The translations under genes and the position numbers were made by a program. This document shows, piece by piece, positions 35,501-64,000 of a stretch of 64,000 nucleotides of DNA. The notes under the pieces are model-generated. The model saw only the letters and a program-made list of their open reading frames with translations. It made no database searches and was not told the DNA's origin. The DNA comes from Nitrospira sp. GTDB taxonomy: Bacteria; Nitrospirota; Nitrospiria; Nitrospirales; Nitrospiraceae. Numbering within the stretch: position 1 is the stretch's first letter; every line of letters begins with the position of its first letter. Location of the stretch: positions 744,001-808,000 of the forward strand of contig BQWY01000001.1 of NCBI GenBank assembly GCA_036984305.1, given 5' to 3'.

Positions 35501-35563
35501 CGGCGACACGCCCTGCATGGGCGAATACTCAGAGTGGACGTGCAGGTGGACGAAGGGCGGCAT
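32513..35563 (-). CDS. dnaE2: Error-prone DNA polymerase DnaE2 (ImuC)
   Basis: C-family polymerase alpha subunit of the mutasome used in SOS mutagenesis and lesion bypass. The 1016-aa protein begins with a PHP domain (VHLHVHSEYSPMQGVS). The palm domain carries the catalytic aspartates in PDIDIDF (about residue 350), and the FAGYSFCKPHSASYA stretch lies in the fingers region, followed by HhH and OB domains. It lacks the C-terminal extension of replicative DnaE. The start overlaps imuB by 35 nt, so the two are translationally linked. A replicative DnaE is excluded by context and length. Confidence 0.92.
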   Translation of the reverse strand: MPPFVHLHVHSEYSPMQGVSPLQALCDAVRAHGARTLALTDTNGFYTAVRFLTVARQARLRPILGAELTTESHRAVLLAKTPEGYANLCRLLSARHSDPGFSFIDAVARHRDGVIVLSDDEPALAAWANDSREDLYVELTPGPAMHQTLLFSRRAHLPPVATNRVHFVRPDEFSVHRLLRAIALNTTLSRLPASACCRPTHWLMPPERMARQFPHCPEAIEHTSHIAETCHTDWRFGETIFPAFRQLSSEAAFTLLREHTYAGATKRYGEVSPTIRARIEHELAIIQDKRFADYFLVVQEIVRQAPRTCGRGSVAASIVSYCLEITHVDPLRHNLFFERFLNPGRKDPPDIDIDFPWDERDDILDWVFTRYGASQAAMVANQNTLGIRAAIREVAKVYGIPATEIGRVSSLILRRQHFVTFDRPPTADVWAQRVSRSLALREPWPDILRAAVRVEGRLRHLSLHCGGVVIVPDEIRRYVPVEIAAKGVPVIQWEKEQTEEAGLVKIDLLGNRSLAVIRDALRAVADNTGRTIEYAAWNPLTDSATQELIRQGNTMGCFYIESPATRSLLRKLWGGMPPDRKARLDVFEYLVMVSSLVRPAAIRFVDEFVRRAQGAPYRPWHPRLATILDETHGIMVYQEDVTKVAMALADFSVEDADQLRKVLSKKHKEKQLRDYRDQFCRGAAKNGADPDTIVQIWQMILSFAGYSFCKPHSASYAQVSFKSAYLRAHYPAEFMAAVISNQGGYYSAYAYMSESRRMGLTIAPPDVNASEWAYTGCDRTIRIGLMQIKSFPETVGKKIVEERTANGVYHSFQDLLARVPMETRHARSLVRSGCCDSIAGELTRPALLWRLYAGARAGSVNLPVPDDYPLRRKLAHEMETLGLLFSRHPLELYHPQLRRIDWVPASAMPAYVGRRITMVGVLVTEKAVETKDGLLMEFATFEDTTALYDATLFPDVYRRSCHLLATDRAYLLRGLVEEQFGVATFTVATLYLLSPESTDKHEATNFEGTGPWYAEA

Positions 35564-36740: not shown

Positions 36741-36805
36741 ACCACGCACCACACGGGAGACCGGGCGGAGAGCCCGATGTCATCAATTCGCAAACCGCCA
36801 TGAAG

Positions 36806-49512: not shown

Positions 49513-49581
49513 CGTCATTGCTCCTGGTCCTCCGTGTGAAAAGGCTCGGCTACACGTGAGTCGTATCGGACTGGTTTGCGT

Positions 49582-50271
49582 TCATGGGTTTGCCCGCTCG
49601 GCCAATTCGACCACATTGCTCCGAGCTCGCAACACAGCCATCGATTGGTCCAGGGTTGCAGGATCGCCTCCCGGAAGCAGGACCATGTACCGACCATCCG
49701 GGCGCGGACCGTCGATAATCCGACCATGGACGTTTCCCAAGAGCGTTCGAATCTGATCCGCGGTGGTGTTGGCGTTGAACACGACTATCACCCGCGTTCC
49801 TTGGGGTGGAATACCTCGCTCCACCACCTCACCACCTGGCCCGGAAGCGGGTTGCGCCGGTGCATGGACACTGACCCACCACAGGAGTCCGGCCTGCAAC
49901 GCGATCAACACCGTTGCGAATGCGGGCACCCAGCGCGGACGAAGGAGGTTCCGAAACCACTCCTCCACGATATCGGTCGTACTCCGTGTCCGTCGTTGGG
50001 ACGGTTCCCTGGTAGGCATGGCGGCCGCCTTGACCTTGGACAGGATTGCCGGCATCAGATCGCGCGGTGGGGGCGCCTGTTCCGTATAGGCCGATCTCAG
50101 AAGATCCCGTTGCTGCGTCAGTTCGGCCAGTTCTTCCCGGCAGAGGGCGCACGATTCCACATGGATTCGCACGCGATCGCGCTCTTCAGGCGAGAGCCTG
50201 TCGGTCACGAACCAGGGGAGCAACAGGGCCGACTCGTGAACGCCGAGCTCGGATGGCGACGGTTCGCTCAT
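49582..50271 (-). CDS. Zinc-finger anti-sigma factor with propeptide-like outer domain
   Basis: 229 aa. The zinc-binding anti-sigma motif H-x3-C-x2-C is H37/C41/C44 (HVESCALC). A single membrane segment lies at about residues 114-134, and the remaining 95 residues would be periplasmic. That part (VIVVFNANTTADQIRTLL...GRYMVLLPGGD) resembles the subtilase propeptide / inhibitor I9 fold, an inference by eye. It overlaps the sigma gene by 4 nt (ATGA), so it should hold that sigma factor inactive at the membrane until a signal arrives. Confidence 0.85.
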   Translation of the reverse strand: MSEPSPSELGVHESALLLPWFVTDRLSPEERDRVRIHVESCALCREELAELTQQRDLLRSAYTEQAPPPRDLMPAILSKVKAAAMPTREPSQRRTRSTTDIVEEWFRNLLRPRWVPAFATVLIALQAGLLWWVSVHAPAQPASGPGGEVVERGIPPQGTRVIVVFNANTTADQIRTLLGNVHGRIIDGPRPDGRYMVLLPGGDPATLDQSMAVLRARSNVVELAERANP

Positions 50272-50861
50272 GGCAATTCCGCTTGCAGTTGCATCCGTTC
50301 CAACTCCCGCTTCAGGTGCTGTTTGGCGTAGAACACACGCGTCTTCACCGTGTTGATCGGTACGTGCGTGAGTTCCGCGATTTCTTCGTAGGATAATTCT
50401 TCGAAGAATACCATGCGCAGGGCCTCCTGATGTTCCACGCTCAATCGGGCCAGCGCGGTACGCGTGAGGGTCCCGAGGCGCAGGCTTTGTGCGGCGTCGG
50501 CGGGGCCGCCGGCCCGATCCGGAAGGTCGGCCGCCTCGTCGATGGGGATCGTGTGTTCGATTGGTCTGCTCAAGCGACGCACCGCATCCAAGGCCTTGTG
50601 TCGGGCAATGCCGAAAATCCAGGTCGAGGGCCGGGATGAACTCCGGAACGAGGCGGCACTGTTCCAGACCGCCAACATGACGTCTGTGACGAGCTCCTCC
50701 AGCGTCGCTTCGTTCTGGACCAACGTTCGGATGTAGTGATACAGTCGCCGCTCATAAAGACGGTAGAAGACCTCGAACGCGCGCGTATCACCTCCCGCGA
50801 TCCGGCGGATGAGATCAAGCTCATCCGGTGACGTGGGGTGTGTCGAGTTCTGGGGAGACAG
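50268..50861 (-). CDS. ECF (RpoE-like) RNA polymerase sigma factor
   Basis: Sigma-2 region (DTRAFEVFYRLYERRLYHYI to WIFGIARHKALDAVRR) and sigma-4 helix-turn-helix (LSYEEIAELTHVPINTVKTRV) are both clear. The natural N terminus would be just before SPQNSTHPTSPDELDLIRRI. No ATG or GTG exists there; CTG 50861 is preceded by AAGGAGG with 8-nt spacing and gives 197 aa, the usual ECF length. TTG 50882 and the distant TTG 51062 (264 aa) are in frame but have no Shine-Dalgarno. It heads the operon with the anti-sigma factor and a caspase. Confidence 0.85.
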   Translation of the reverse strand: MSPQNSTHPTSPDELDLIRRIAGGDTRAFEVFYRLYERRLYHYIRTLVQNEATLEELVTDVMLAVWNSAASFRSSSRPSTWIFGIARHKALDAVRRLSRPIEHTIPIDEAADLPDRAGGPADAAQSLRLGTLTRTALARLSVEHQEALRMVFFEELSYEEIAELTHVPINTVKTRVFYAKQHLKRELERMQLQAELP

Positions 50862-50995
50862 GGTTCGAACCTCCTTGGCCAAGGAGTTGGCGGGGGCCCT
50901 CGTTCGGCGGATAGCATAGCCCAAGCGATCAAGAAAATGCGAGGATACCTTGCGGCTGCAGCGCGTAGGCCTTGGTCCAGCCCGGCGTTGCGCCG

Positions 50996-51025
50996 TTGAC
51001 GTGAGCGTTCGGAGGGCCGTAGAGT
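50996..51025 (+). promoter_or_regulatory. Putative promoter of the DUF4384 lipoprotein gene
   Basis: TTGACG (50996-51001), 18 nt, TAGAGT (51020-51025), about 52 nt before ATG 51084 in the divergent gap shared with the sigma operon. I could not find a convincing minus-strand promoter in that gap. Confidence 0.4.
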
Positions 51026-51083
51026 AATGAACCTTCCCATAAGCTCGAGCGACTGACCGCAAGAATCAAGCGGAGGGCGTTCT

Positions 51084-52724
51084 ATGACACCGGCACACAC
51101 ACGGCTGGGGGGTAGATATAAGGAAGGTCTCACCACATCGAGTGCGCTCGTCTTTCTCTTGATCTCCGGTTGTGCCGCAGCTATCCCCTTCATGATCGGT
51201 CCCGCCATCGAATTTGCACGTAATCTGCTCGTTACTTCGAATTCCAACTATGGGAAAAAATATTCGGCAGACGTCAATACGCTCGTCATGGGGTTAGCTC
51301 GACCCTACGTGGCGACGCCGTATCCGTTGCGGCCACCGCCGGCAATGGCAAATCCCTCCCAAGGGGTCCCGTATGGCGGCACTGCCCAGGGCTTTGTCGA
51401 TCCGAACAATCCCCAAGGTTATTCCCAAGCCGGGGTCTACCCGGGCGGTGCAGCCCAACCCTATGGCGCGCCGCCTTACGGAGCTGCGCCGGGTTTGAAC
51501 TCAATGGGGTACTCGGCCGGAGACCCGCAGTATCAATACGGATTGCAGCAGGGTGTCTACGGTGCGCAGGGCGGTTATGGGTATCAGCAGGGGGCGTATG
51601 GCGGGTATCAAGCTCAAGGACAAGCTGCTTACGGAGGCGGATACCCAGGTACCGGTGTGCCCTATGGCACCATGCCCAACATGGGCATGCAAGGCATGCA
51701 GCCTCAACAGGCGTACCCGCTCGGGTCGGCTCCCGCGTACCCGCAGGGCCAGGGTTATGGGAGCCCAGGCGATCCCAATGTAATGGCGGGCACCGCGCCA
51801 GGGGGGTACCCACCCACGCAATACCAAGCGAATCCGTATCCCTCCGGCCAGTATCAAGCGCAATCCCCCTACCAGATGCAGCCCGGCCAGATGCAGCCCG
51901 GGATGGTGGGACAAGGGATGCCGATGGATTCCACTCAAATGCCTCCTGCGGTCGCGCAGGGAGGATATGCACCTCCCCAGTATCAGGCACCGCCGCTGGG
52001 TCAAGGCGGGGGGGTCGCCGGGAGCGGAATGATGCCCATTGCAGCCACCCCGCAGATGGTGCCGGGCGGGTATAACAGCGGAGCGGCATTCGGATTTCGT
52101 GGGGCTGACGGTACCGACACGGGCAAAGTCGCGGCGATGGCGCCGATTGAATTGGATGTGGCACTTGTGAAGCAGGTGACGACGCCCGATGGCACACGCG
52201 TTGCGGCGGTCCAGGATGGCGAGGTGTTGCATGACGGCGGCGGTAACCCTCTGGCTGGCGACCGCTTCAAGGTTGTCTTCCGCACGAATTGTGTCTGCTA
52301 TGTCTATGTCGTTTCGGTTGACGGTTCCGGATGGGTGCAACGCGTCTATCCAGCTCCCGGTTCTCAGGGAGGCAATCCGGTGGCCGCCAATCAGGAGTTC
52401 GCCTTCCCGGTAGGTAGCCAGTGGTTGAGTCTCGATCAGACCAAGGGGATCGAGACCTATTTCTTCGTGGCCTCGCCAGGACCACGGCCGGATTTGGAGG
52501 AAGCACTAAATCGCTTGGAGCAGCATGAACGCCCAACCGGAGCGATCGTCGCGAAAGTGGACGAGCCGGCCGTGATCCCCGCTGGGTTCGGGGCCAAAGG
52601 ACAGGGGCTACAGGCGATGGTGACCCGAGACGCGGAAGCTCCTGCCTACGTCGTGCCGATCAGCTATCAGGCAGGAGGGCCTGGAGAGGATGTGCGGGTT
52701 ACTCGCTGGTTCCGTCATGAGTAA
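51084..52724 (+). CDS. DUF4384 lipoprotein with a Gly/Tyr/Pro/Gln-rich low-complexity region
   Basis: 546 aa. The N terminus ends in a lipobox (LLISGC, C30). Residues about 78-340 are low complexity, built from irregular PYG, GYP, QYQ and MQPG units, resembling prion-like or spider-silk-like sequence and probably disordered. The C-terminal 190 residues fit DUF4384 (FRTNCVCYVYVVSVDGSGWVQRVYP). The same domain closes the divergent caspase, tying the two genes together. The distance to the next gene is negative (8-nt overlap). Confidence 0.8.
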   Translation: MTPAHTRLGGRYKEGLTTSSALVFLLISGCAAAIPFMIGPAIEFARNLLVTSNSNYGKKYSADVNTLVMGLARPYVATPYPLRPPPAMANPSQGVPYGGTAQGFVDPNNPQGYSQAGVYPGGAAQPYGAPPYGAAPGLNSMGYSAGDPQYQYGLQQGVYGAQGGYGYQQGAYGGYQAQGQAAYGGGYPGTGVPYGTMPNMGMQGMQPQQAYPLGSAPAYPQGQGYGSPGDPNVMAGTAPGGYPPTQYQANPYPSGQYQAQSPYQMQPGQMQPGMVGQGMPMDSTQMPPAVAQGGYAPPQYQAPPLGQGGGVAGSGMMPIAATPQMVPGGYNSGAAFGFRGADGTDTGKVAAMAPIELDVALVKQVTTPDGTRVAAVQDGEVLHDGGGNPLAGDRFKVVFRTNCVCYVYVVSVDGSGWVQRVYPAPGSQGGNPVAANQEFAFPVGSQWLSLDQTKGIETYFFVASPGPRPDLEEALNRLEQHERPTGAIVAKVDEPAVIPAGFGAKGQGLQAMVTRDAEAPAYVVPISYQAGGPGEDVRVTRWFRHE

Positions 52725-53607
52725 TGCACTCCGGATCGGTTCGTGTCTGCTGGCGGTGCTGCTGACGATCCCGCCTCCGGCAGCGGCACAATTCTTCCCG
52801 CCGCGCAAACCCTCTCCGCAGACTCCCACTTCGCCCACGCCGTCAACAGTAGTCCCCCAATCCCCGCCTGGAACGGGTGGTGGGCTCCAGGGACAGACCA
52901 AAATCGTGCCGTTCAGTGCCTTGATGGGTGGCGACTTCACCAAGTCGTTCATCGAAGTGAGCAATTTACGCAGTCCCATGGATTCGCATTTCGTCCTGGG
53001 GCCCGCCCTCCAGGGGCACTTCATGCTGGACAAGCATGAGGTGTCCGTCATGAACGGGCAACGGGCCTACTTCCATCTCAACGGTCTATCGAACCCTCCA
53101 GTCGTCTCGACGGTTGGAACGGAACTTCGATTCCAATTCACCTTTCCGACGATCAGCGTGAAGGGCTATTATAAAGACTATACGCCAGCCGGTGATTCGG
53201 CCATCCCCGATCTGACGATCGAGAAGGGGGAAGTCGAAATCTACCTGACGCCGGGGATCAATCAGCAAGGCCTCCCCATCTATCAATCCGCACGCGTGGT
53301 GTTCATCGGCTCGTTGCGGCAGCCTGACTCGTGCGGGGTGTGGTTCGATGTGATTTTCCGCCTCAACGTGTGCGATGCCGTCAGTACCTACCTGAATCAG
53401 GTTAAACCGGCGATTCAGGACGGGGTACGCGACGCCATGCACCAGCAACAGACGAGAATGCAATTCGATCAGACTGCCTGGCAGTATTTGCGCACCATGC
53501 TGTTGACCCTCCCGGGACTTCCACCGTTCCCCCCCCAGACTCAGATCCAAATCCTAGACGCTCGCTTCCAGGGCACCGATTACTCCGTGCGGTACCTGCC
53601 GCGGTAG
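52717..53607 (+). CDS. Secreted protein of unknown function
   Basis: 296 aa from ATG 52717, which overlaps the lipoprotein gene by 8 nt. A signal peptide (IGSCLLAVLLTIPPPAAA) is followed by a roughly 40-residue Pro/Thr/Ser linker, then a beta-rich domain without motifs I recognise (VPFSALMGGDFTKSF, GVWFDVIFRLNVCDAV). Two cysteines may form a disulphide. Co-transcription with the DUF4384 lipoprotein suggests a shared envelope role. Confidence 0.75.
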   Translation: MSNALRIGSCLLAVLLTIPPPAAAQFFPPRKPSPQTPTSPTPSTVVPQSPPGTGGGLQGQTKIVPFSALMGGDFTKSFIEVSNLRSPMDSHFVLGPALQGHFMLDKHEVSVMNGQRAYFHLNGLSNPPVVSTVGTELRFQFTFPTISVKGYYKDYTPAGDSAIPDLTIEKGEVEIYLTPGINQQGLPIYQSARVVFIGSLRQPDSCGVWFDVIFRLNVCDAVSTYLNQVKPAIQDGVRDAMHQQQTRMQFDQTAWQYLRTMLLTLPGLPPFPPQTQIQILDARFQGTDYSVRYLPR

Positions 53608-53779
53608 GCTCTAGCTCGTGCGGCGCGGTGATCCTGCACCATCTGGCCCATGCCTCAGGATTAGCCCCGCAAGGTAGGCACGGTCCGAACCCTGCCGGCT
53701 CGGTCCCGACCGCGCTTGAACTATTTCCGGTCAACCCACGACCTACTGCCATGTCTACGTAGCAAGGATTAGCCTGGCC

Positions 53780-53809: not shown

Positions 53810-53855
53810 TATGGCCCTTTCCCAGACTCACTCCGAGGGTGTGAGGCAGGCTCGG

Positions 53856-56800
53856 ATGCGACGCAGCGGGCATCACAACACGCACGCATCTCGGTGGCGC
53901 CCGCCGATCGCCGCGCGTAAGTCGCTCGCCTGGTTGCGTCATCTCGGTCTCTGTCTACTTACATTGGCCGCGCTCGTTCTTTCCCCTACGCAGCAGGGAG
54001 GAGCGGATTCGGCCGTGACGGCCCCTCGTGAGTTGGTGGGTCACAAGAACGAAGTCTTTGCCGTCGTCTTTTCCGAGAACGGACAGTTGCTCGCGTCGGC
54101 CGGAGGCGACCAGCTTATACGTCTTTGGGATCCCGCGACGGGTCGTGCACTCAAAGAGTTGCGCGGGCACCACGGAGCCGTCCATACGCTGGCGTTTTCG
54201 CCGGATGGACGTACGCTCGCGTCTGGGGGCAAGGATGGCACCATCCGATTCTGGGATATCCCCGGAGGGATCGAACGGAACACCATCAGCACCACGTTCG
54301 GCGGCGTTCGTGCGTTGGCATATGCGCCGGACGGGCGCCTCCTGGCCTCGGGTGGCGATGACGGAAGCGTGCGCTTCTGGAATCTCGAAACCAAGAAAGT
54401 GCAACGCGCCGTCCGTGGGAGCTTTGGCATCAGCTACGGGATGCGGTTCACTGCCGATGGCCGTCAACTGGCCACGGCCAACAGCGATGGAAAGGTTCAT
54501 CTTTGGGAGGTGTCGACGGGACTCCAGCGTGCGACGTTGGCCGGCAGCATTGGAGCTGTCCGTGACGCGGCCTTCTCGCCGGATGGCCGATGGGTGGCAG
54601 GTGCCGGGAATGACGGGGACATTCGCCTTTGGGACGCGGGTTCCGGGGAGGAGCACCTCCGCCTGAGCGGGCATCGCGGCGAAGTCTATGCGATTGAGTT
54701 TTCACGAGATGGCCGATCGCTGGTTTCTGGCGGAGCAGATGGGACCATCCGCGTGTGGGACGTCGCCACCGGGCGCGAGCGATTCGCGCTGGCCGGTCAT
54801 AAGGGGCCGGTCTGGTCCGTGACGATATCGCCGGACGGGCTGGTCGTGGCTTCGGGAGGCCGCGACCGGATGGTCCGTGTTCAGCCCAGCATGCCGGTGG
54901 CGCTGAGCGCCTCACTGGCCGACAAGATCAAGCAACACGGCGACGAAATCGGCGCGCCGCCGTCCCCACCGCCGCTCCCCGAGGCTGAGCTAGCCCTCAG
55001 CCCGGTCGAAGTCAAGGCTGGCGGGACACTCACCCTAAAGCTGACGGTGACCAACAAGGGGAAGGGTCCGCTCTATCGCATGCAGGCGACGACGAAGAGT
55101 TCCGACACGCTGTTCAACGGCCATCGATTTTACCTGGGGAAAATTGATGCCGGTCACGCGTCGACAGACTCGCTCATGCTCAGAGTCCCATCAGACCGGC
55201 CCGATGGGGAAGCGCCGTTCGAGCTGCTGTACGAAGAATACAATGGCTTCGTCCCTCCGCCGACGCAGGCAGTGGTCTCGCTCAAGGGACTCCCTCGACC
55301 GCGATTTGCCTACACGTACCAAGTGGTGGACGACGGCAGCGGGCAATCCGTCGGCAACGGAGACGGGCGCGTGCAAACAGGCGAGGCGGTCGATCTTCTA
55401 TTGACCATCAAGAACGTCGGCGCCGTCTTGGCTCAGAACACGACGGTGGAACTGACACCTCCGCACACACCCGGACTACGGCTCGATCGTTCGACGCTCT
55501 CATTTGGTCCGCTCCAGCCGGAGCAAACCAAAAGTGTCCGAGTCAATCTGTTTGTCCCTCACGATCAGAAAGAACCTGAGATTCCGCTACGACTCCTCAT
55601 CAGGGAGCGATCGATGAACGTGTTTTTGGATGACACGGTCGGTCTCCAGGTCGACCATCGGCCGCCTCCCGCGATCACGGTGCTCAATAAGCGTGTCCTG
55701 GTCAGCAAGCCATCGGTGACGATTTACAGCGGCGCAGGCGTCGAGACGCCGGTGTTGGCCTCGGCGACGCAGGGGCAGTCACTCGCCATCAGCGGCGAAC
55801 TCGGAGAGTGGTATCGTGTCCAAATCTCCGAATCAGAACGGGGATGGATTCCCCGGAGCCAGGTGGCGGAGGCCGCGGAACCCCCGCCAGGCGAGATGCC
55901 GGTTCCGGTGGTGGTAAGCGCTCCTGTGGTGAAGCTCTTTCAAAAGGCACCTCCGGTGATTGCATTGGCGGGGATTGTCGACAATGCCGAGGTCAGTGCC
56001 GACCGAATTTTTCTGTCGGGCGCAGTCGCGAGCGAGCGCGGCGTGGCGAAGCTAGAAATTCGTGTGAACGATCAGCTCGTCACGCAGCGCGGCGGCCGGG
56101 GAGTCGCGGTCGTGCCCGACGACCCGGGTCCGACGACGAACTTCAATTTCGCCGAACGAGTGCCGCTTCAAGAGGGCAAGAACGTCATCCTCGTCACGGC
56201 TGTGGATCATGACAACCTCTCGGCGAGCCGCACGTTGCGTGTGAACCGGACGGTCGATCGCGGCAAGATCTGGGCGGTCGTGGTCGGAATCTCCAGATAC
56301 AAGGCTGTGCAGCCGCTGCGCTATGCCGACCGCGACGCCATGGCGTTTCAAGAGTATGTCACCGAGCACCTCGGCGTGACCAAGGACAGGTTGATGCTTC
56401 TTCTGAATGAAGAGGCGACATTGACCAACCTCAAGCGCACATTGGGTACCGAACTCAAACGCAAAGCCGGAGAGAAGGACACCGTCCTGATCTACTATGC
56501 CGGCCATGGCGCTCCCGAAGCCGATGCCTCGTCGGCTGACGAGGACGGCTTAGAGAAGTACATCGTCCCGTACGATGCCGATCCCAAGGACCTGTACACG
56601 ACGGGGTTGCCCATGCGGGAGGTGGAAACGATTTTCAACCGTCTGGCACCCGAGCGGGTCATTTTCATCAGCGATTCCTGTTACAGCGGTGCCACAGCCG
56701 GTCGGACGTTTGCCACGGCTTCACGACGGGCCGTGGTGTCCGATGCCTTCATGACCCGCTTGTCGAAGGGTAAGGGTCGCGTCGTGTTGAGCGCGAGCAA

Positions 56801-57029
56801 GGCCAGCGAAATCAGCGAAGAGCGGGAAGACCTCGGTCATGGCGTTTTCACGTACTACTTCCTCGAGGGGCTAAAAGGAAAGGCCGACGGAGACGGCGAC
56901 GGCATGGTGACGGTCGACGAGGTGTACGCCTACGTGTCGAAGAAGGTCCCCGAAGTCACGGGGCAGAATCAACATCCTGTGCGCAAGGGAGAGGTCGAAG
57001 GGCAGCTGGTCCTGGGACAGGTGAGGTAA
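53856..57029 (+). CDS. Multidomain WD40 / CARDB-like / SH3 / caspase (C14) exported protein
   Basis: 1057 aa from ATG 53856; ATG 53811 would add 15 residues. A signal or anchor segment (LGLCLLTLAALVLSP) leads into seven WD40 repeats (about residues 60-354, a full propeller), then two immunoglobulin-like CARDB/NEW3-type segments (LTLKLTVTNKGKGP, DLLLTIKNVGAV), a bacterial SH3 domain (VTIYSGAGVETPVLA to GWIPRSQV), and a caspase domain from about residue 803. Catalytic H884 is in YAGHGA and C942 in SDSCYSG. DGDGDGMVTVDE near residue 1011 fits a 12-residue EF-hand loop, so calcium control is plausible. The substrate is unknown. Confidence 0.87.
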   Translation: MRRSGHHNTHASRWRPPIAARKSLAWLRHLGLCLLTLAALVLSPTQQGGADSAVTAPRELVGHKNEVFAVVFSENGQLLASAGGDQLIRLWDPATGRALKELRGHHGAVHTLAFSPDGRTLASGGKDGTIRFWDIPGGIERNTISTTFGGVRALAYAPDGRLLASGGDDGSVRFWNLETKKVQRAVRGSFGISYGMRFTADGRQLATANSDGKVHLWEVSTGLQRATLAGSIGAVRDAAFSPDGRWVAGAGNDGDIRLWDAGSGEEHLRLSGHRGEVYAIEFSRDGRSLVSGGADGTIRVWDVATGRERFALAGHKGPVWSVTISPDGLVVASGGRDRMVRVQPSMPVALSASLADKIKQHGDEIGAPPSPPPLPEAELALSPVEVKAGGTLTLKLTVTNKGKGPLYRMQATTKSSDTLFNGHRFYLGKIDAGHASTDSLMLRVPSDRPDGEAPFELLYEEYNGFVPPPTQAVVSLKGLPRPRFAYTYQVVDDGSGQSVGNGDGRVQTGEAVDLLLTIKNVGAVLAQNTTVELTPPHTPGLRLDRSTLSFGPLQPEQTKSVRVNLFVPHDQKEPEIPLRLLIRERSMNVFLDDTVGLQVDHRPPPAITVLNKRVLVSKPSVTIYSGAGVETPVLASATQGQSLAISGELGEWYRVQISESERGWIPRSQVAEAAEPPPGEMPVPVVVSAPVVKLFQKAPPVIALAGIVDNAEVSADRIFLSGAVASERGVAKLEIRVNDQLVTQRGGRGVAVVPDDPGPTTNFNFAERVPLQEGKNVILVTAVDHDNLSASRTLRVNRTVDRGKIWAVVVGISRYKAVQPLRYADRDAMAFQEYVTEHLGVTKDRLMLLLNEEATLTNLKRTLGTELKRKAGEKDTVLIYYAGHGAPEADASSADEDGLEKYIVPYDADPKDLYTTGLPMREVETIFNRLAPERVIFISDSCYSGATAGRTFATASRRAVVSDAFMTRLSKGKGRVVLSASKASEISEEREDLGHGVFTYYFLEGLKGKADGDGDGMVTVDEVYAYVSKKVPEVTGQNQHPVRKGEVEGQLVLGQVR
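56984..57027 (+). repeat. Direct repeat copy A (3' end of the WD40-caspase gene)
   Basis: These 44 nt, encoding the last residues KGEVEGQLVLGQ, recur at 63512-63554 with one substitution and one deleted base. The two copies lie in the same orientation about 6.5 kb apart and bracket the secreted-protein cassette. Confidence 0.8.
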
Positions 57030-57159
57030 CCGGGGTCCGTGGGCATGGACCAGGCGGTGAGTTTCAATTACGCGGTGACAGGAAATCCAGTCACCAAGTC
57101 GGAGAAGAAGCCATGACGAGTGGCGACTCATACCATTGCATCGATGAATCGAGGTGAGC

Positions 57160-58398
57160 ATGACGTGGGGACGTCAACTCCCGCTCCGGTTTGCTCGAAC
57201 GTTGTTATTCTTCGGGTTCGGCGTAGCACTGGCGTGCCCCACCCGAGTTATCGCGACCGATCTGCCGATCTATGGAGGCTTGGGAGGGATTGCGCTCCGA
57301 GCAGATTGCCCAATGGGGTCCTACCTGGTCGGGCTTGCGGGCAGAACCGGCGAGTGGGTGGATCGCATTGCTCCGGTTTGTGCGCCGTGGCTGCGGGGCA
57401 GTCAAACACTTGGCCCGCCGTCAATCGGTCCATCGTTCGGCACGAGCGGAGGAGGACAAGAACGCCAAGCAATATGCACCGGCGGAGGCAACAAGACGGT
57501 CACTATTCAGTCTTGGTGGATCCACGTTCTTCGATCTGACAATCACTATGTCCAGTACGTCGAGGTGTTCTGCACCTCGCTCACCATTCCTGTATCCACC
57601 GATTCCGGGTGGCGTCTGGGTTTTGGGAACAAACCGACCGACGTTGAGGAGATGGTCACCGGTGGTCCCTTTACATCGCAGCCTCCGTTTCAAGCCTGTC
57701 CTGCCGGCGAAGCCGCAGTGGGATTTCGCGTACGAGCAGGACAGTTCGTCGATGCCATCGGGTTGATTTGTGGGCCGCTACCGGCACGAGCGGGCGCCCC
57801 AGTCACGAAAGTGGATCCACGCATCGCCATGCCGCCAGTGCCGGCCTCTGACATGTTTGTCGTCGTGAAGCCTGGTTCTGGTGACAAGATGGCCCACGGC
57901 CAGCTTGTTGTGATGGCCACGGCGCCGAAAGTCGGCATGACCACCGTCACGGAACTGGAACTCAGATATCTCGACGCCCCCGCGAGTCAACAGCACGCCT
58001 ATCCCTACACCACGATCGTGTCGGTCGAGACGGGGAAGCTCCTCAACGGGTACGCTGTCTCGGAACGAGTGACCGGCGGCTATCTCGGTCGGTGGCAGGT
58101 GCGTGTGCGGTCCAGCATGAAAGCGGTGCCGGGAGCTTGGAGCCTTCCCGTGCAGTTCCAGATGGTAAAGGCGCAGCCACCGCCGCCGATGGTGCAGATG
58201 CCAATGCAAAACGCTCCGATCCTGCAAGCACCCGCTCCGAACTCGTCCATGATGCCAGTCCCTCCATTGAGTGAAGGTGGGACAACGCAGATGAGACGTT
58301 CGCCGTCGATGATCATGCCGCGTGGGGCGGACGAAAAGGAAGGAACGGTAAGGGGTGAACCCCCGACGGAGACGTTAAGACCGGACGAAAAACCATGA
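57160..58398 (+). CDS. Secreted protein with duplicated CPxG...VGxxxRxGxxVDxIxxxC motif
   Basis: 412 aa from ATG 57160, with GAGG upstream. A signal peptide (TLLFFGFGVALACP) precedes two copies of a motif, CPMGSYLVGLAGRTGEWVD and CPAGEAAVGFRVRAGQFVD, each followed by a Cys six to eight residues later; similar repeats occur in lectin-like extracellular proteins. A fibronectin/Ig-like section follows (VTELELRYLDAP, WQVRVRSSMKAVPGAWS), then a Pro/Met-rich tail. No enzyme motif is seen, and a binding role is inferred. First gene after the WD40-caspase. Confidence 0.72.
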   Translation: MTWGRQLPLRFARTLLFFGFGVALACPTRVIATDLPIYGGLGGIALRADCPMGSYLVGLAGRTGEWVDRIAPVCAPWLRGSQTLGPPSIGPSFGTSGGGQERQAICTGGGNKTVTIQSWWIHVLRSDNHYVQYVEVFCTSLTIPVSTDSGWRLGFGNKPTDVEEMVTGGPFTSQPPFQACPAGEAAVGFRVRAGQFVDAIGLICGPLPARAGAPVTKVDPRIAMPPVPASDMFVVVKPGSGDKMAHGQLVVMATAPKVGMTTVTELELRYLDAPASQQHAYPYTTIVSVETGKLLNGYAVSERVTGGYLGRWQVRVRSSMKAVPGAWSLPVQFQMVKAQPPPPMVQMPMQNAPILQAPAPNSSMMPVPPLSEGGTTQMRRSPSMIMPRGADEKEGTVRGEPPTETLRPDEKP

Positions 58399-58439
58399 CC
58401 ATCCGGCGGATTCACCTACATTTCTTGAAGGAGATGATC

Positions 58440-58883
58440 ATGCGCGACAAATCTTCAGCCGGTCCGAACATGATGAGGAAGCGCTCTTCTCCTCTTCGAT
58501 TGATGGTGCTGAGTATGATGACCATCGGCTTCACCACCCTGCCGGCGTTTGCAGTTTGTACCAGTACCAGCCAATGCCCAAGTCACATGGTGTGTATGAG
58601 TTCCGCGATTCCTGGCATCAAAGAATGCAAGCAGCAGATGTGCAATAGCGATTCGGAATGTCCTTCGGCACGCCCACGTTGCCTGAACGGCGCCTGCATG
58701 GCTCCTGCCGGAACCGGTGGAGGCACGGGCGGAGGGACATCGGGAGGTGGCACAACCGGTGGGACCTTGGGTGACGTCGGCCAGAGCTGCGGCCCCTACA
58801 AGATCGGGCAGGTCACCAAGAGTCGGGGCTGCAAGCAGGGATTGCAGTGCGTCAATCGCACGTGCCAACCGCTGGCGCGATAA
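58440..58883 (+). CDS. Small secreted Cys-rich protein
   Basis: 147 aa from ATG 58440, which has AAGGAG 6 nt upstream; ATGs at 58395 and 58434 are less likely. Signal peptide LRLMVLSMMTIGFTTLPAFA. The mature protein has two Cys-rich segments (CTSTSQCPSHMVCMS...CKQQMCNSDSECPS and CGPYKIGQVTKSRGCKQGLQC) separated by a Gly/Thr linker; the spacing recalls dickkopf-like or EGF-like extracellular modules. Probably disulphide-bonded; function unknown. Confidence 0.72.
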   Translation: MRDKSSAGPNMMRKRSSPLRLMVLSMMTIGFTTLPAFAVCTSTSQCPSHMVCMSSAIPGIKECKQQMCNSDSECPSARPRCLNGACMAPAGTGGGTGGGTSGGGTTGGTLGDVGQSCGPYKIGQVTKSRGCKQGLQCVNRTCQPLAR

Positions 58884-59025
58884 AGCTCTGAAACGTGAAC
58901 CGATGGTCCCATGCAGAATCAAACGGAGATCGGGTGTGAGGACAAATAGAGGTTAGCGGTCCATCTGTCATTCAACGGGGCGTCGTGGTCACTGTTATAG
59001 AGGCCCCATCCATGGGAGGATGATC

Positions 59026-60297
59026 ATGAGACGAAGGCTTTTGCTAGTTGCAGCAGCGGGAATTACACTCTCAGCCCTCATTCCCACGCTCACAAGCACA
59101 TTCGCGCAAGGCCCTCTCTCCGCTCCCACCCCGATTCGGCCTCTCACGAACGGAACACCCAACTTTCCTGGAAGCGACGCGCTATCGGCTGGTGACGGAG
59201 CATTCGTATCGTTCACTCACGTTAACGGAGCCACACACTACAAAATTTGTCTAATGGATCCTGGAGCAGGCGCTTGTTTCAACGGGACTACTCCGGTACC
59301 GGTTACGGCGCGCGTACAGGGCCCACCCCTCGCCCCGGGACTGACAATCACGTTTATCGTTACCGGATTGGAGACCAGGCAAGGGCAATCGATCAACTGG
59401 ACCGTCCAGGCATGTAGCGGCCCTACAAGTGCGCAATGCGGTGCTTTTTCTACGAGTCAAACAGTTATCGTGCTCCTGCCGCCAGCGACCATACCATCGG
59501 ATGTGTCACAGACAATTCCAATCGATCAGCGCGTGACCTTTCGATGGACAAATCATCCCCTTGCAAACGCAGCCCCTCAACTCATTGTCTTGCCGGATTG
59601 GACTACGACAAGGCTACAACCAATCTTCACCAGTGCGAACCCGACGGTGGTTGGTGTACCTGGCCTCAGCATCGCGGTGCCGCAAGGAGCTATAACCCAT
59701 ACGATCACGTTAGCTGATGCTTTGAAACCGGCGATCAAATGGGCTGTCGCCAATTGCAGAAACTATCCCGGTAAGGGCCGCCGGTGCAGCCAGTTGCTCA
59801 CCCCATGGAACAAGATGCGGGTGGCCAACCTGTTTATGTTCCAACTTGCATTTACCTTCAATGAAGGACGCTGCGTGAGATGTCATGCGGCGGCGGCGAC
59901 GAACTTCCAGAGTGGAGCGGTGCAGGGTTTGCCATCCAATCATCCTCCGGTCAACGCCACGACGAACACTCAGTCAACACAGAATGGCCAAGGATGCCGG
60001 TCATGTCACACCGATGCGCTCCTGCCTACTCAAGGAAGTGTCAATCCGGGATGGCACGCGCCGCCGGCCTCGATGGATTTTCGCGGTAAAAACATCGGGC
60101 AACTTTGCCAAATGGCAAGATCCCTTGGGTCGCCCATCGCGGCTTTTCGCCACCTCACTCAAGACAAATTGATTCTCTGGGCGGTCGGAGACGGCAGGGT
60201 GCCTAATGGCGCCACTCTCCAGTTAGCTGCACCCGGTTCGATCGAAGAGTGGAGGCACGCGGTCGCCCTTTGGCTGGAGGCCGGCACGCCGTGCTGA
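59026..60297 (+). CDS. Exported di-haem (two CxxCH) protein
   Basis: 423 aa from ATG 59026, which has GGGAGG 6 nt upstream. Signal peptide LLLVAAAGITLSALIP...TFAQ. The first 200 residues look like fibronectin/Ig-type domains (FTHVNGATHYKICLMD, VTFRWTNHPL). The second half holds two haem c attachment motifs, CVRCH (about residue 283) and CRSCH (about 324), with several further His. It could be an extracellular or periplasmic cytochrome; no partner redox genes are nearby. Confidence 0.75.
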   Translation: MRRRLLLVAAAGITLSALIPTLTSTFAQGPLSAPTPIRPLTNGTPNFPGSDALSAGDGAFVSFTHVNGATHYKICLMDPGAGACFNGTTPVPVTARVQGPPLAPGLTITFIVTGLETRQGQSINWTVQACSGPTSAQCGAFSTSQTVIVLLPPATIPSDVSQTIPIDQRVTFRWTNHPLANAAPQLIVLPDWTTTRLQPIFTSANPTVVGVPGLSIAVPQGAITHTITLADALKPAIKWAVANCRNYPGKGRRCSQLLTPWNKMRVANLFMFQLAFTFNEGRCVRCHAAAATNFQSGAVQGLPSNHPPVNATTNTQSTQNGQGCRSCHTDALLPTQGSVNPGWHAPPASMDFRGKNIGQLCQMARSLGSPIAAFRHLTQDKLILWAVGDGRVPNGATLQLAAPGSIEEWRHAVALWLEAGTPC

Positions 60298-60332
60298 ATT
60301 GAGAGGGCAGTGAGGACTGGATGAATTGGGAG

Positions 60333-60360
60333 AAAGGGTTCCAGGTTCCAGGAACCGTTT
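60333..60360 (+). terminator. Hairpin 35 nt after the di-haem gene
   Basis: AAAGGGTTCC (60333-60342) and GGAACCGTTT (60351-60360) pair over 10 bp with one mismatch and an 8-nt loop. Only a short T stretch follows, so it may be a weak terminator or an mRNA 3'-end structure. Confidence 0.4.
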
Positions 60361-60424
60361 CCGTTCGCGAAGTCCGGCGAGAGAGCCGTGAACCGTTCTT
60401 TATCAGGTCAATCAAGGAGGATCT

Positions 60425-61465
60425 ATGCGTCCTCATGGGCGAGTCAGCATGTTGTTGGTCGCATCAGCAATGGCTTTAGCCGGCGTCGACGCCGGCTACG
60501 CGGATGAGCAACACCAGTGTTTCTTCGAGTCGATCCAGGCAACTTTCACGGCCGAAACTTCCACCTATCATGTGGAGGCGGGCTGTATGTACTACCACCC
60601 TCTGGAGGGTCCAGTCCCAGCTCAGCGCCTTCCGATTCACTGGTCCTCTCAAGGTTCCTTCGATTCGCGCACCGGCTTGGCCACGGAAGACGTCACGTTT
60701 AAGGGAAGTAGTGGAATAGTTACCACGACTCTGTCTTGTCCAAGCGATCCTTGGCTGAATCCCTCAACGTTGCCCGGGATGATCAGATGTAAGAACCCTA
60801 CATTTAAGACGAGCGGAGTAGACCCTACCCTTGGATGGTTTCGGCATTTGCGTGAGGGATTTTATTCCCTCTCGACTATAAAAGTAGGGCCACTCCCGAA
60901 TTCCACGGGATTTCCGTACAATCGCGCGTCGTTGATCGCCCAACGCGACGCAGCGCTCAAGGCCGCAGCCGCCGAAGCGGCCGCAGCCTTGGCTAGAACG
61001 AACAAGCGCATACAGCAGGGGGTGATGAAAGGTCCGCCTGTGGTCGTCCCGACCATCTTACTGCCGACCCCCGGCCAGAGTTTCCTGAATCAGACTACCG
61101 TCCCCATCAAACTCTCGCCACCGCAAGGTTGGGCGGACACGCAGGTCGGGCTCGACGGCAAGCCGTTGAACACCGGTCGTTTGTACGCGGTGCGCGTTGA
61201 ACGCCGAGCCCCCGACGGATCCTGGATACCGCATACCACCCTCCCCGTCGGAGCCCCTCAAGCAGAGTCGGCGACGGGGTATACCGGCTTCGGTGCCGGT
61301 ACGCCTCCGGGAGGAATCACCAGCCCAGGGTCGTGGCGATTGAGCGCCCAGATGTCCTCCCCCTCACAGACCGGGTGGAGCGGATGGGTCGAGTTCCTGG
61401 TCATGGCGCCGCCGACCGGACCAAACAGCACAGTGCAGCGCGCACCGAAAATGTTCGGACCGTAA
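60425..61465 (+). CDS. Secreted protein of unknown function
   Basis: 346 aa with a signal peptide (MLLVASAMALAGVDAGYA). AAGGAGGATCT before the ATG is an excellent ribosome binding site. The N-terminal half has five cysteines (CFFES, CMYY, CPSDP, CKNP) with a beta-rich pattern; an Ala-rich helix (about residues 180-195) links to a C-terminal Ig/fibronectin-like part (IKLSPPQGWADTQVGLDG, WSGWVEFLV) similar in style to the neighbour at 57160. No known domain recognised. Confidence 0.7.
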   Translation: MRPHGRVSMLLVASAMALAGVDAGYADEQHQCFFESIQATFTAETSTYHVEAGCMYYHPLEGPVPAQRLPIHWSSQGSFDSRTGLATEDVTFKGSSGIVTTTLSCPSDPWLNPSTLPGMIRCKNPTFKTSGVDPTLGWFRHLREGFYSLSTIKVGPLPNSTGFPYNRASLIAQRDAALKAAAAEAAAALARTNKRIQQGVMKGPPVVVPTILLPTPGQSFLNQTTVPIKLSPPQGWADTQVGLDGKPLNTGRLYAVRVERRAPDGSWIPHTTLPVGAPQAESATGYTGFGAGTPPGGITSPGSWRLSAQMSSPSQTGWSGWVEFLVMAPPTGPNSTVQRAPKMFGP

Positions 61466-61484
61466 TGCTGTGGAAGGAGATTGT

Positions 61485-61958
61485 ATGATCCGAATCAGAT
61501 TGTGCCGGTTGATTGCAATGGCCGCCTGCTTCCTGACCCCGTTCGCACATTCGGTCTCCTTCGCCGCACCAACTGCCAAAGCTCCGCCAGAGCCCTGCGC
61601 ACTCCTCACCTCCGGAGAGGTGGAGCAGGTCGTCGGGAAGTTGAAGGGAACCCCGAAAGCCGACCAGGAAGGGCCCGCCAGTTGGTGCAACTATGAATTC
61701 ACCAACGAAAAAGATGCGATGGAAGTCTGGGTATTCCCGGGTGATGGCATTGATCGAGGGCGCAGGGCCTCGAAGAAGCCGGTTCACGTGAATGGACTCG
61801 GTGACGATGCCTTTATGGATCGCGGTATGCACGGCCTCGACTACGTGAACCTGTTCGTTAAGAAGGGCGGCACGACCGTCAAGCTCTCAATCAAGGAAAC
61901 GGCCGAGGACGAGGCGAAACTCAGAGCCCTTGCGCAGAAAGCCGTCGGGCGGTTCTGA
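61485..61958 (+). CDS. Secreted protein, DUF3558-like
   Basis: 157 aa from ATG 61485 with GAAGGAG upstream; ATG 61470 is an upstream alternative. Signal peptide LIAMAACFLTPFAHSVSFAA. PEPCALLTSGEVEQVVG at the mature N terminus followed by WCNYEF is the pattern of small exported domains such as DUF3558, which tend to be lipoproteins or substrate-binding modules; here there is no lipobox. Function unknown. It ends at 61958, followed by a 287-nt gap with only a short GCGGG/CCCGC palindrome near 62024. Confidence 0.65.
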   Translation: MIRIRLCRLIAMAACFLTPFAHSVSFAAPTAKAPPEPCALLTSGEVEQVVGKLKGTPKADQEGPASWCNYEFTNEKDAMEVWVFPGDGIDRGRRASKKPVHVNGLGDDAFMDRGMHGLDYVNLFVKKGGTTVKLSIKETAEDEAKLRALAQKAVGRF

Positions 61959-62245
61959 GACTGCTACTTTCTCTGCCTCCCAGATGACTGAGGGGCGACA
62001 CGAGGGCAGCATCGGTGAGGGTGGCGGGAACCCGCGCGACGATCTAGAGGACGACCGTTCTGTTCTTGGCAACTGACCAAGCCTGGGAGCGGGCCTGAGC
62101 AGCGGTAGAGGGATGCACAGTAGGCCAGGGACCGTTCGGACTTTACCGAGTGAACTTGTGCGCCGATGCGACGACACACTGAGCGTCATGCATGGAAGAT
62201 GGATTAGGTTGACGTTGCTGAAAAGGCGCTAATGAGGACCATACT

Positions 62246-63460
62246 ATGGAACAGAAGCTTTCATGCGCAAAAGAGTTTGCCGTAAGAATCTCCTTGGCAG
62301 CAACGTGCGGACTAGTACTTGCCTTTTTCGCGATGTCCATTGGATTCGCCGATGACTCGCCTCCTACCGATATCATCAATCCAATAGCGGAGAACACGGC
62401 TCCCTCGCAAAGTTCCGACCAGCCGCAGGCTGAAGACGTGCAAGAGCGAGGTGTTGTTCCAAACATCGTCAGACCTGGCCTGACCCCGCAAGTGCTCACG
62501 CCATTGCAATCGGCGCCGCTCTCTATCAGCGCATTACCTGGCAATGTTGCGATTCAGACATTTAGCGGGAAGTATCTCACGGCTGTCGGAGGAGGCGGAC
62601 GCATCACCGACGTGTTCCACACCGATGCGGCGGCGATCGGAGCATGGGAAACGTACAGGCTATTCCTTGTGCTGGGCGGGGGCGTTCCCCCAAAGTTCGC
62701 CATCCAGACGGCCAGTTCTAACTACATCACGGCCGTTGGCGGCGGAGGACGAAGCTCGGACGTCCTCCACACGGATGCAAAACAAGTACAGGCGTGGGAA
62801 ACATTCAGCTTTGGTCTCGACCAATACGGTTGGAGACATGCCATCCAGACCGTCAACGGGCATTACCTCACTGCGGTGGGCGCAGGAGGCAAGACGACGG
62901 ACGCCATCCACACCGATGCCGTGAAGGCTGATAACTGGGAGTCCTTCTACATTTGGAAGTGCGGCGATCTGGGAAGCGGCCGTCAATACACGCTCTCCTC
63001 TACCTCCGATCCATATGGATTTGTGTTCGCGTATGGCGGAGGCGGACGAGTCAATACTCGCGATGGCAATTTTATTTTTGGCGCGATCGGTGTGCTGAGC
63101 GACTACCAGAAGCGGCCAGCCTCGTTCGACAATAGCTGGCAGCGATTTCTGTTCATGCGGCAAAACGACGGCTCGTATGCGCTTCGGACTTCCAATGGAG
63201 TGAACTATCTCACCGCGATTCAAGGCGGAGGTCTCCCGGCGGGAGGAATCACCACGGACAATCTGGTCACCGATCGTACGCAGGTGCAGGCCTGGGAGAA
63301 ATTCCGCTTTATTGAGCACGGGAGCTGCACCTATGTCATTCAGACGTCGAGCGGCCATTATCTCGGGAAAAAGACGGCGACGACGGGTATCGGCAAATAT
63401 GCGACGAATATCAGCGACCTTAACCAAGCGACGAAGTTCCGGCTTGGCGTGCTGTTCTGA
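62246..63460 (+). CDS. Exported fascin-like beta-trefoil repeat protein
   Basis: 404 aa. Signal peptide SLAATCGLVLAFFAMSIGFA, a Ser/Pro-rich linker to about residue 90, then repeats of the type IQTFSGKYLTAVGGGGR...HTDA...WETY, with three close copies and two looser ones. The pattern is that of actin-crosslinking (fascin-like) beta-trefoil domains, which in bacteria are usually carbohydrate-binding or surface modules. GAGG lies 8 nt before the ATG. Last gene of the secreted cassette. Confidence 0.8.
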   Translation: MEQKLSCAKEFAVRISLAATCGLVLAFFAMSIGFADDSPPTDIINPIAENTAPSQSSDQPQAEDVQERGVVPNIVRPGLTPQVLTPLQSAPLSISALPGNVAIQTFSGKYLTAVGGGGRITDVFHTDAAAIGAWETYRLFLVLGGGVPPKFAIQTASSNYITAVGGGGRSSDVLHTDAKQVQAWETFSFGLDQYGWRHAIQTVNGHYLTAVGAGGKTTDAIHTDAVKADNWESFYIWKCGDLGSGRQYTLSSTSDPYGFVFAYGGGGRVNTRDGNFIFGAIGVLSDYQKRPASFDNSWQRFLFMRQNDGSYALRTSNGVNYLTAIQGGGLPAGGITTDNLVTDRTQVQAWEKFRFIEHGSCTYVIQTSSGHYLGKKTATTGIGKYATNISDLNQATKFRLGVLF

Positions 63461-63554: not shown

Positions 63555-63660
63555 GAAGACCGAAGTCGCTGGTGAATGTCGGTTCTCATTCGATCCCTAT
63601 GGACCGTCCATGAATGAGTACCAGCGACGGCTGTCTCAGATGCAAGGACAGATTGGATGA
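63553..63660 (+). pseudogene. Possible remnant of a gene 3' end before lnt
   Basis: An open frame ending at TGA 63658-63660 reads FDPYGPSMNEYQRRLSQMQG near its end, protein-like but without a credible start: upstream it enters the displaced caspase repeat. It overlaps the next start codon (ATGA), as if a decayed gene once coupled to it. A short unknown peptide gene or chance cannot be ruled out. Confidence 0.3.
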
Positions 63661-64000
63661 GCATGAGTGAGAAAGATCTGTATTCATGGCGAAGCACGGC
63701 GCTCGCCCGCATTCTCCTGTCCCTTGCCACGGCGATCCTGTTGATCTGTTCGCTCCCCGCGCCGGATCTAGGATGGCTTGCCTGGGTAGCACTGGTGCCG
63801 CTCATCGTAGCCTGCCATGGAGTCGGCTCTGGACCTGCCACCGGTCTCGGGCTCTTGAGCGGGGTGGTCGCGAGCTTCGGCATTTATGGATGGTTGTTCG
63901 AAGTACCAAGTTTCGATCTGCGGCACGCCGTCATTTTGGCACTCTATGTCGCGCTCTACCCAGCCCTGTGGTGTGCAGCGCTGGCCGTTATGCAGCGTCG
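63657..64000 (+). CDS. lnt: Apolipoprotein N-acyltransferase-like protein, 5' end only
   Basis: The frame is open from ATG 63657 to the right edge (114 codons seen); ATG 63663 is an alternative. AAGGA lies 8 nt upstream. Four or so hydrophobic segments begin with ARILLSLATAILLICSLPAPDLGWLAWVALVPLIVACHG, whose PxLGWLAWVALVPL core is typical of the N-terminal membrane part of Lnt, the enzyme that N-acylates lipoproteins. The catalytic nitrilase domain lies beyond the window, so a paralogue of other function is possible. Confidence 0.7.
   Translation, partial: MSMSEKDLYSWRSTALARILLSLATAILLICSLPAPDLGWLAWVALVPLIVACHGVGSGPATGLGLLSGVVASFGIYGWLFEVPSFDLRHAVILALYVALYPALWCAALAVMQR

Follow-up and report, generated by a model that had tools for sequence, protein, structure and literature searches.

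An island of tagged exported proteins beside two caspase-like proteases in Nitrospira: a candidate ECF-controlled surface regulon

In Porphyromonas gingivalis, Mfa1 and FimA are exported as lipoprotein precursors, and Arg-gingipains, Arg-specific proteases of clan CD, cut them after an Arg of the N-terminal prosegment before they polymerize (PMC5954841). PEP-CTERM/exosortase (PMC1569441), GlyGly-CTERM/rhombosortase (PMC3237569), and MYXO-CTERM/myxosortase (PMC11980579) systems were found by phylogenetic profiling; in each, a tag on unrelated exported proteins co-occurs with one protease. YabG is an Arg-specific clan CD-like protease that acts on many proteins of one extracellular structure in one developmental programme (PMC12445089). 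We analyzed a cassette of six genes for exported proteins (P0001 to P0006) in a 64,000-nucleotide stretch of a 4.35 Mb Nitrospira genome (positions 744001–808000 of contig 1, hereafter the window). The cassette lies in a larger island, which is in our judgement rather probably a regulon of surface or matrix proteins that is controlled by an extracytoplasmic function (ECF) sigma factor and matured by exported, Arg-specific, caspase-like proteases.

Among the described systems, the Arg-gingipain step is the nearest working model for the island. Gingipains are general proteases of family C25, whereas the island proteases belong to C14, and gingipain substrates lack a tag such as that of the island, which is shared across about 25 families. 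We know of no ECF regulon linked to the Arg-gingipain system. With exosortase-type systems the island shares a tag that sits on unrelated exported proteins and is co-distributed with a protease. Their tags end in a transmembrane helix and their enzymes are intramembrane, whereas the island tag is soluble, lies at either end of the protein, and has C14 proteases as candidate enzymes; the strict exosortase-type definition (a tag with a transmembrane helix and a basic end, and an intramembrane enzyme) does not describe it. YabG is from endospore formers and is unrelated in sequence, and we know of no substrate tag shared by its targets.

To our knowledge, little is established about what bacterial caspase homologues naturally cut or do, and proposals mostly concern cell death. 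Here the genome itself points to likely substrates: a tag on unrelated exported proteins, one sigma factor, and two caspase homologues are encoded side by side. This makes the function testable and suggests that it lies in building the surface and not in death. If this is true, a C14 protease joins the small set of tag-guided systems for processing surface proteins, and a cell-surface programme is described for some Nitrospira, which are nitrifiers growing in aggregates and biofilms. In the literature searched (main texts of open papers), no bacterial caspase with a tagged substrate regulon was described, which is weak evidence.

The two exported caspase-like proteases

The proteases and the main sites of P0007 are as follows, in window coordinates.
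53811–57029, + strand: P0007, an exported protein of 1072 aa with WD40, CARDB/SH3/immunoglobulin (Ig)-like, and C14 caspase parts (WD40; Peptidase_C14 8.2e-17), hereafter the WD40-caspase
56505–56507, + strand: codon of the catalytic His899 (YYAGHG), invariant in 26 sequences
56679–56681, + strand: codon of the catalytic Cys957 (DSCYSG); Cys and Asp955, the S1-pocket Asp of L4, invariant in 26 sequences
56886–56921, + strand: EF-hand-like loop DGDGDGMVTVDE in the P0007 caspase domain, residues 1026–1037, with invariant ligands
47254–49518, − strand: P0010, an exported C14 caspase-like protease with DUF4384 (Peptidase_C14 2.5e-24, DUF4384 1.9e-13)

Profile, model, and invariant residues indicated that P0007 has a Peptidase C14 p20 fold with a His-Cys dyad. 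The model of its caspase domain (predicted local distance difference test, pLDDT, 88) best matched the structures of MALT1 (Z 23.4), Arabidopsis metacaspase 4 (Z 23.1), and GSU0716 (22.8), and by sequence the domain matched metacaspases with an E of 2.7e-12. Asp842 aligned with the Asp of the metacaspase CxxD motif and Asp955 with that of DSC, and both were invariant in 26 relatives. They probably make up the acidic S1 pocket typical of C14B, with one Asp in helix 1 and another two residues before the catalytic Cys. Asp95 and Asp211 of TbMCA2 and the S1 acids of MALT1 form an Arg-binding pocket (PMC4357240); Asp842 and Asp955 would be the equivalents of Asp365 and Asp462 of MALT1. C14 members other than animal caspases cleave after Arg or Lys (PMC5756287).

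P0007 thus resembles MALT1 and the plant and fungal metacaspases (C14B) in fold (Z 23), dyad, acidic S1, a predicted Arg↓Gly site, and a hydrophobic P4. Unlike them, it is bacterial, exported, and fused to WD40 and CARDB/Ig-like parts, it has Ala at the position equivalent to Cys92 of TbMCA2, and its putative substrates are secreted and encoded beside the protease. The Cys92 position supports the activity of TbMCA2 (PMC5756287). We do not claim that P0007 is a metacaspase. P0010, with HYSGHG and LDSCHSG as catalytic motifs, matched metacaspase structures with an E of 1.1e-24 and is the clearer metacaspase relative.

In the EF-hand-like loop, Asp1026, Asp1028, Asp1030, Gly1031, and Glu1037 were invariant in 10 orthologues. 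The loop may be a Ca2+ site that renders P0007 Ca2+-dependent, in which case Ca2+ would gate the WD40-caspase through it. Residues 382–814 of P0007 (window 54954–56252) matched TIGR03900 (1e-67). P0007 shares this CARDB/SH3/Ig-like module of about 430 residues with the MXAN_5808 family, whose members are serine peptidases, unlike the C14 caspase of P0007; the module is common to two unrelated protease types.

Arg-Gly tags on unrelated exported proteins

The tag emerged from an unbiased ranking of 4- and 5-mers in exported island proteins against 381 background open reading frames (ORFs), in which VQER (22 vs. 1), VQERG (14 vs. 0), and RGVEG (14 vs. 0) stood at or near the top. It has an N-terminal form, V-Q-E-R-[G/A]-V, and a C-terminal form, [IV]-x-[SPR]-R-G-[VI]-[ED]. 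Strict patterns, which were written after the data had been inspected, matched 66 of 165 exported island proteins, none of 99 exported controls, and 2 of the 381 controls overall; reversed island sequences gave one match. Because the proteins of different islands are partly orthologous or paralogous, these raw counts are not independent, and the family count is the fairer measure. With the tag masked before clustering, tagged proteins fell into some 25 sequence families.

The N-type tag comes after a linker that follows the signal peptide or lipobox ('...GDVQERGV...'). The C-type tag lies mostly 15–45 residues from the end ('...NAPIMRRGVEGE...', '...VRPRGVEEK...', '...FMSRGVD...'). Several proteins carry both forms, and no hydrophobic segment was found behind the tags. 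Two cassette proteins are tagged.
57154–58398, + strand: P0001, with two probable jacalin-type lectin repeats, an Ig-like region, a Pro-rich linker, and a C-terminal tag
58312–58329, + strand: C-type tag IMPR↓GA in P0001 (Arg390), from pattern match and family alignment
62246–63460, + strand: P0006, with fascin-like β-trefoil repeats after a tag-bearing N-terminal linker
62438–62455, + strand: N-type tag VQER↓GV in P0006 (Arg68), from pattern match and family alignment

V65, Q66, and R68 were invariant in 11 fascin-like homologues, in which the surrounding linker could not be aligned. Similarly, the P0001 family kept [IVF]x[PS]RG behind a variable linker. The cleavage consensus of MALT1 is LxP/SR↓G (PMC4659944), and inhibitors of metacaspases and MALT1 classically carry the sequence VRPR (PMC6207715). 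The C-type tag fits the MALT1 consensus almost letter for letter.

A short motif that lies in linkers at the N- or C-terminus, and for which cutting is a prediction, could also be a docking or sorting signal, bound uncut by an outer-membrane exporter or for surface attachment, with the caspases serving another purpose such as sensing or degradation. We regard this as unlikely: the invariant Arg followed by Gly or Ala, the aliphatic P4, and the Ser, Pro, or Arg at P2 make up a C14B cut site, two C14 proteases are encoded beside the tags, and we noticed no candidate for a receptor that the islands have in common.

Proteins with both tags are also what a very improbable variant of the caspase reading predicts, and several such proteins were observed. 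The tags would here be donor and acceptor of a caspase-like ligase that links secreted proteins covalently into an extracellular polymer. The C-tag (...SR↓GVEGE) would be cut, the acyl-enzyme held, and the product joined to the N-terminal Gly or Ala released from a cut VQER↓GV. If true, this would be a sortase-like use of the caspase fold.

Five of the eight DNA-pattern matches to VQER[GA] in this genome lay inside 12 kb of the island; for each of the other three, a frame reading through the motif was either not found or of uncertain coding status. Across the family, the pattern was more frequent in caspase genomes, which averaged 5.5 matches vs. about 1.6 in the others; these counts, like the genome-wide promoter counts below, were transcribed by hand.

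Promoter motif and distribution among relatives

The sigma factor pair and the two promoter sites found in the window are listed with P0009.
49582–50271, − strand: zf-HC2 anti-sigma factor (Pfam zf-HC2 2.2e-5; NCBIfam anti-sigma 4.8e-14)
50268–51062, − strand: ECF sigma factor (Sigma70_r2 5.4e-16, Sigma70_r4_2 2.7e-13, TIGR02937 2.3e-27); its true start is probably near 50975
51028–51056, + strand: ECF-type promoter TGAACCT-N15-CGACTGA, 56 bp before P0009, score 20.8 with the position weight matrix (PWM)
51084–52724, + strand: P0009, a DUF4384 repeat-rich, lipoprotein-like exported protein (DUF4384 1.1e-8)
53717–53745, + strand: ECF-type promoter TGAACTA-N15-CGACCTA, 94 bp before the start of the WD40-caspase ORF, score 21.9

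A protein with sigma70 regions 2 and 4 adjoins an anti-sigma factor, as in ECF pairs. When the regions before 174 exported island genes were searched without bias for bipartite words, TGAAC-N17-CGAC was recovered in 30 of them and in none of 168 background regions. In the islands, this seed matched 41 coding-strand sites vs. 4 on the opposite strand; 800 kb of background strands gave 3. An A two bases behind CGAC, which was not part of the seed, was present at 40 of the 41 sites, giving the consensus TGAACCT-N15-CGACnnA. Its GAAC −35 and CGA −10 elements upstream of the putative targets are consistent with an ECF regulon. A PWM trained without this genome found sites in it before P0009, before the WD40-caspase, and at three places past the window. 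Read-through from the 53717 promoter may extend to the six-gene cassette. Genome-wide counts were 0–2 sites in nearly all genomes (about 0.5 outside genomes with the ECF/DUF4384-caspase pair) and 4–9 in most genomes with that pair. Since high counts were also found in four genomes without a full-length close WD40-caspase orthologue (G008, G027, G031, and G067), the promoter follows the ECF/DUF4384 pair.

Among 118 sampled genomes of the family Nitrospiraceae, full-length WD40-caspase orthologues (61–65% identity) were present in 10. Homologues of P0001, P0004, and P0006 occurred almost wholly in those ten genomes and in two fragmented assemblies (G026 and G085), a co-occurrence with a hypergeometric P of about 7e-13. 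Where the assembly allows, the cassette homologues lie in the same orientation as the caspase, 3–35 kb downstream of it. In relatives that have them the genes are clustered and not scattered; scattering had been named beforehand as an argument against a unit. In G001, a tagged P0006 homologue (G001:C1:2440776-2441849, L008) was also found about 460 kb from the island of that genome, and an ECF-type promoter match lies about 0.2 kb before it.

The DUF4384 caspase was present in 16 of the 118 genomes, namely all ten with the WD40-caspase and six more. WD40-caspase islands had 32 exported proteins with the VQER form, whereas none of the 60 exported proteins in DUF4384-only loci had it, indicating that this form follows the WD40-caspase. 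Other Arg-Gly forms in DUF4384-only loci were VTER, IESR, and IRPR. The two caspases might thus divide the work between them. A rule that tags occur only with the WD40-caspase proved too strict, given the tags in G027 and G067, and was narrowed to the VQER form. Tags beside a DUF4384 caspase alone, and a promoter that tracks ECF genomes and not the WD40-caspase, would fit a different arrangement, in which another envelope protease cuts the tags and the caspases are linked to them by shared ECF regulation only. The 32 vs. 0 split of the VQER form speaks against it, we noticed no further conserved protease in the islands, and we consider it quite unlikely.

Identities were mosaic: P0006 was 82% identical to its homologue in G044, P0004 was 48% identical to that in G044 but 78% to that in G022, and FtsA was about 80% identical to all relatives. 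The patchy distribution and the mosaic identities imply gain, loss, and reshuffling. They would also suit surface adhesins that are unrelated to one another and were acquired as a group, without a functional tie to the caspases. This explanation, already disfavored by co-occurrence with the WD40-caspase, tags across non-homologous proteins, the shared promoter, and native composition, is highly improbable.

In the caspase reading, which we prefer, the zf-HC2 anti-sigma factor would hold the ECF sigma factor, and the sigma factor would activate the exported-protein genes from TGAACCT-N15-CGACnnA; the pairing of sigma factor and promoter is suggested by their co-distribution. Sec would export the island proteins, some as lipoproteins, and the island-encoded Lnt and DsbA, assigned by family, would acylate them and form their disulphides. 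Since export is predicted for the tagged proteins and for both caspases, enzyme and substrate would share one compartment. There the two C14 proteases would cut after Arg in linkers, at VQER↓[GA]V before a folded domain and/or, close to the C-terminus, at [IV]x[SPR]R↓G[VI][ED]. The lectin-like, fascin-like, and Cys-rich proteins would thereby lose a lipid anchor or propeptide or be made to assemble, and an extracellular layer or matrix might result.

Besides the two limits on the tag counts given above, several points weigh against this reading. Cleavage of the tags by the caspases is something that we infer from sequence. The original prediction had the six proteins as possible cargo, substrates, or matrix components of the caspase module; co-occurrence, synteny, and tags that resemble C14 (paracaspase/metacaspase) cleavage sites agree with this, but among the six only P0001 and P0006 are tagged, and the other four are not. 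Only about one in five of the exported island genes has the promoter motif before it, and no site lies directly before the six-gene cassette. Non-VQER tags also occur in ECF/DUF4384-caspase loci without the WD40-caspase (8 of 60 proteins; G027, G067, and G008), and WD40-caspase relatives in Rokubacteria and other Nitrospirales had no tagged neighbors within up to 10 kb. P0007 has Ala839 at the TbMCA2 Cys92 position and falls outside the metacaspases proper, and the Glu at P2 of VQER is outside the MALT1 consensus.

Cell-death or conflict roles are often considered for bacterial C14 and WD40 proteins (PMC3501461, PMC8195603), and the caspase module could accordingly be a cell-death or conflict system with the exported proteins as its released effectors. 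The caspases, their putative substrates, DsbA, and Lnt are all envelope proteins, the lectin- and fascin-like modules look structural, and no toxin domain turned up among the scanned proteins; we consider such a system extremely improbable here.

The cassette and the rest of the island

The other four cassette genes are listed below.
58395–58883, + strand: P0002, a small exported Cys-rich protein without a tag
59020–60297, + strand: P0003, exported, with two CXXCH motifs and without a tag
60425–61465, + strand: P0004, exported, with an Ig-like C-terminus and no conserved Arg-Gly tag
61470–61958, + strand: P0005, an exported DUF3558-like protein

As originally predicted, the six consecutive + strand ORFs each begin with an evident N-terminal signal sequence. 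Genes and signal peptides were called by simple rules: a codon model trained on the dcw (division and cell wall) block overlooked many cassette genes, so the longest ORFs were picked, and the export heuristic scored five of the six proteins, the signal of P0006 ('ISLAATCGLVLAFFAMSIGFA↓DD') being judged by eye. As only 99 of the 381 background ORFs scored as exported, a chance run of six is unlikely. The cassette starts 124 bp past the WD40-caspase stop, and its intergenic gaps are −4, 136, 127, 4, and 287 bp.

The domain assignments of the original prediction fared differently. The duplicated Cys/Gly motif of P0001 is, by family profile, probably a pair of jacalin-type lectin repeats: eight of nine family members matched Pfam Jacalin (best 4.9e-7; P0001 itself 16.4 bits vs. 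a cut-off of 22), and the profile matched jacalin structures at 2.7e-16. The fascin-like nature of P0006 was borne out by DUF7910 above cut-off and by a family profile that matched the Fascin domain and fascin structures (E 5e-4); the Fascin model matched 4 of 11 family members, and actin bundling is not implied. The single-sequence structure model of P0006 was poor (pLDDT 33), so its fascin-likeness rests on the profiles. Its closest relative (82%; G044:C26:115637-116845, L007) contains an in-frame TAA stop. P0003, described as a di-haem protein, has the two CXXCH motifs, but recognized multihaem cytochrome c families matched below threshold only. P0002 is Cys-rich, but the dickkopf-like label was not upheld, with no DKK match and just DUF7107 below threshold (0.015). 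P0005 had a weak DUF3558-like match (0.0065), and its relatives were present in the islands of seven genomes. P0004 had no Pfam match. Common Ig-like C-termini of P0001 and P0004 are plausible (hhalign E 6e-4, probability 29%). The P0004 family keeps a C-terminal IQxxPKxFG(P) (homologues L083, L079, L086, L090, L097, and L080), which is perhaps a second kind of tag.

Composition was compared with 106 genes sampled from the same genome. The cassette had been described as less GC-rich than the dcw block, which is true, but the dcw block is itself the outlier: relative to the genome the six genes are ordinary (GC percentiles 20–65; percentiles 8–51 for GC at third codon positions, GC3). Codon choice, said to be less uniform than in the dcw block, was atypical in P0003 only. 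Uniform composition and synteny in all relatives had been expected to argue against transfer; the composition was uniform with the genome, yet synteny was conserved in 10 of 118 relatives and not in all. Recent transfer was rejected on the normal composition, which gives no support to the suggestion of acquired factors, and the patchy, mosaic pattern points to the gain, loss, and reshuffling noted above. Elsewhere in the window, the translations at 32513–36752 read as a mutagenesis cassette, a DnaE-like polymerase followed by an ImuB-like gene, and the polymerase gene had strongly atypical codon usage (z 9.0).

The island spans about 791–834 kb of the contig, that is, from about 47 kb of the window to beyond its end, and contains the ECF sigma/anti-sigma pair, two exported caspases, DsbA, Lnt, and about 25 exported proteins. 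Upstream of the cassette lie the WD40-caspase, P0008, the DUF4384 protein, the ECF sigma factor, the zf-HC2 anti-sigma factor, and the DUF4384-bearing C14 caspase. The predicted end at 63460 was wrong, as exported genes run at least 23 kb beyond the window. They reach about 830 kb, together with a DsbA-like oxidoreductase, two Lnt-like genes, and a radical SAM enzyme. YVTN and FecR-like proteins follow at 832–834 kb, the same kinds that follow the caspase in relatives, with housekeeping genes beyond. Two further window features are as follows.
52690–53607, + strand: P0008, exported, of a family without assignment in profile scans
63657–64000, + strand: Lnt, apolipoprotein N-acyltransferase, continuing past the window (TIGR00546 7.6e-82, above cut-off)

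A tRNA-anchored integration of the island was dropped, as no tRNA was found near it in the stretches scanned. In G044, a tRNA-Arg gene (L086:755-830) precedes the WD40-caspase match by about 0.5 kb and may mark an edge of the island in that genome. A second Lnt-like N-acyltransferase gene was found in the same island (G000:C1:819209-820885), and two such genes in one island suggest that lipoprotein maturation belongs to the system. DUF4384 lipoproteins of other genomes (L160, L164, L171, and L172) read 'EEPPVIPRGVG' where P0009 has 'DEPAVIPAGFG', a tag-like sequence without its Arg in the protein of this genome. At the island end, a radical SAM/SPASM protein (G000:C1:830541-831761; L096:4541-5758) resembles the dynobactin maturase DynA (1.7e-34, below cut-off), and a small ORF (829775–830251) lies just upstream of its gene; a ribosomally made, modified peptide is possible there.

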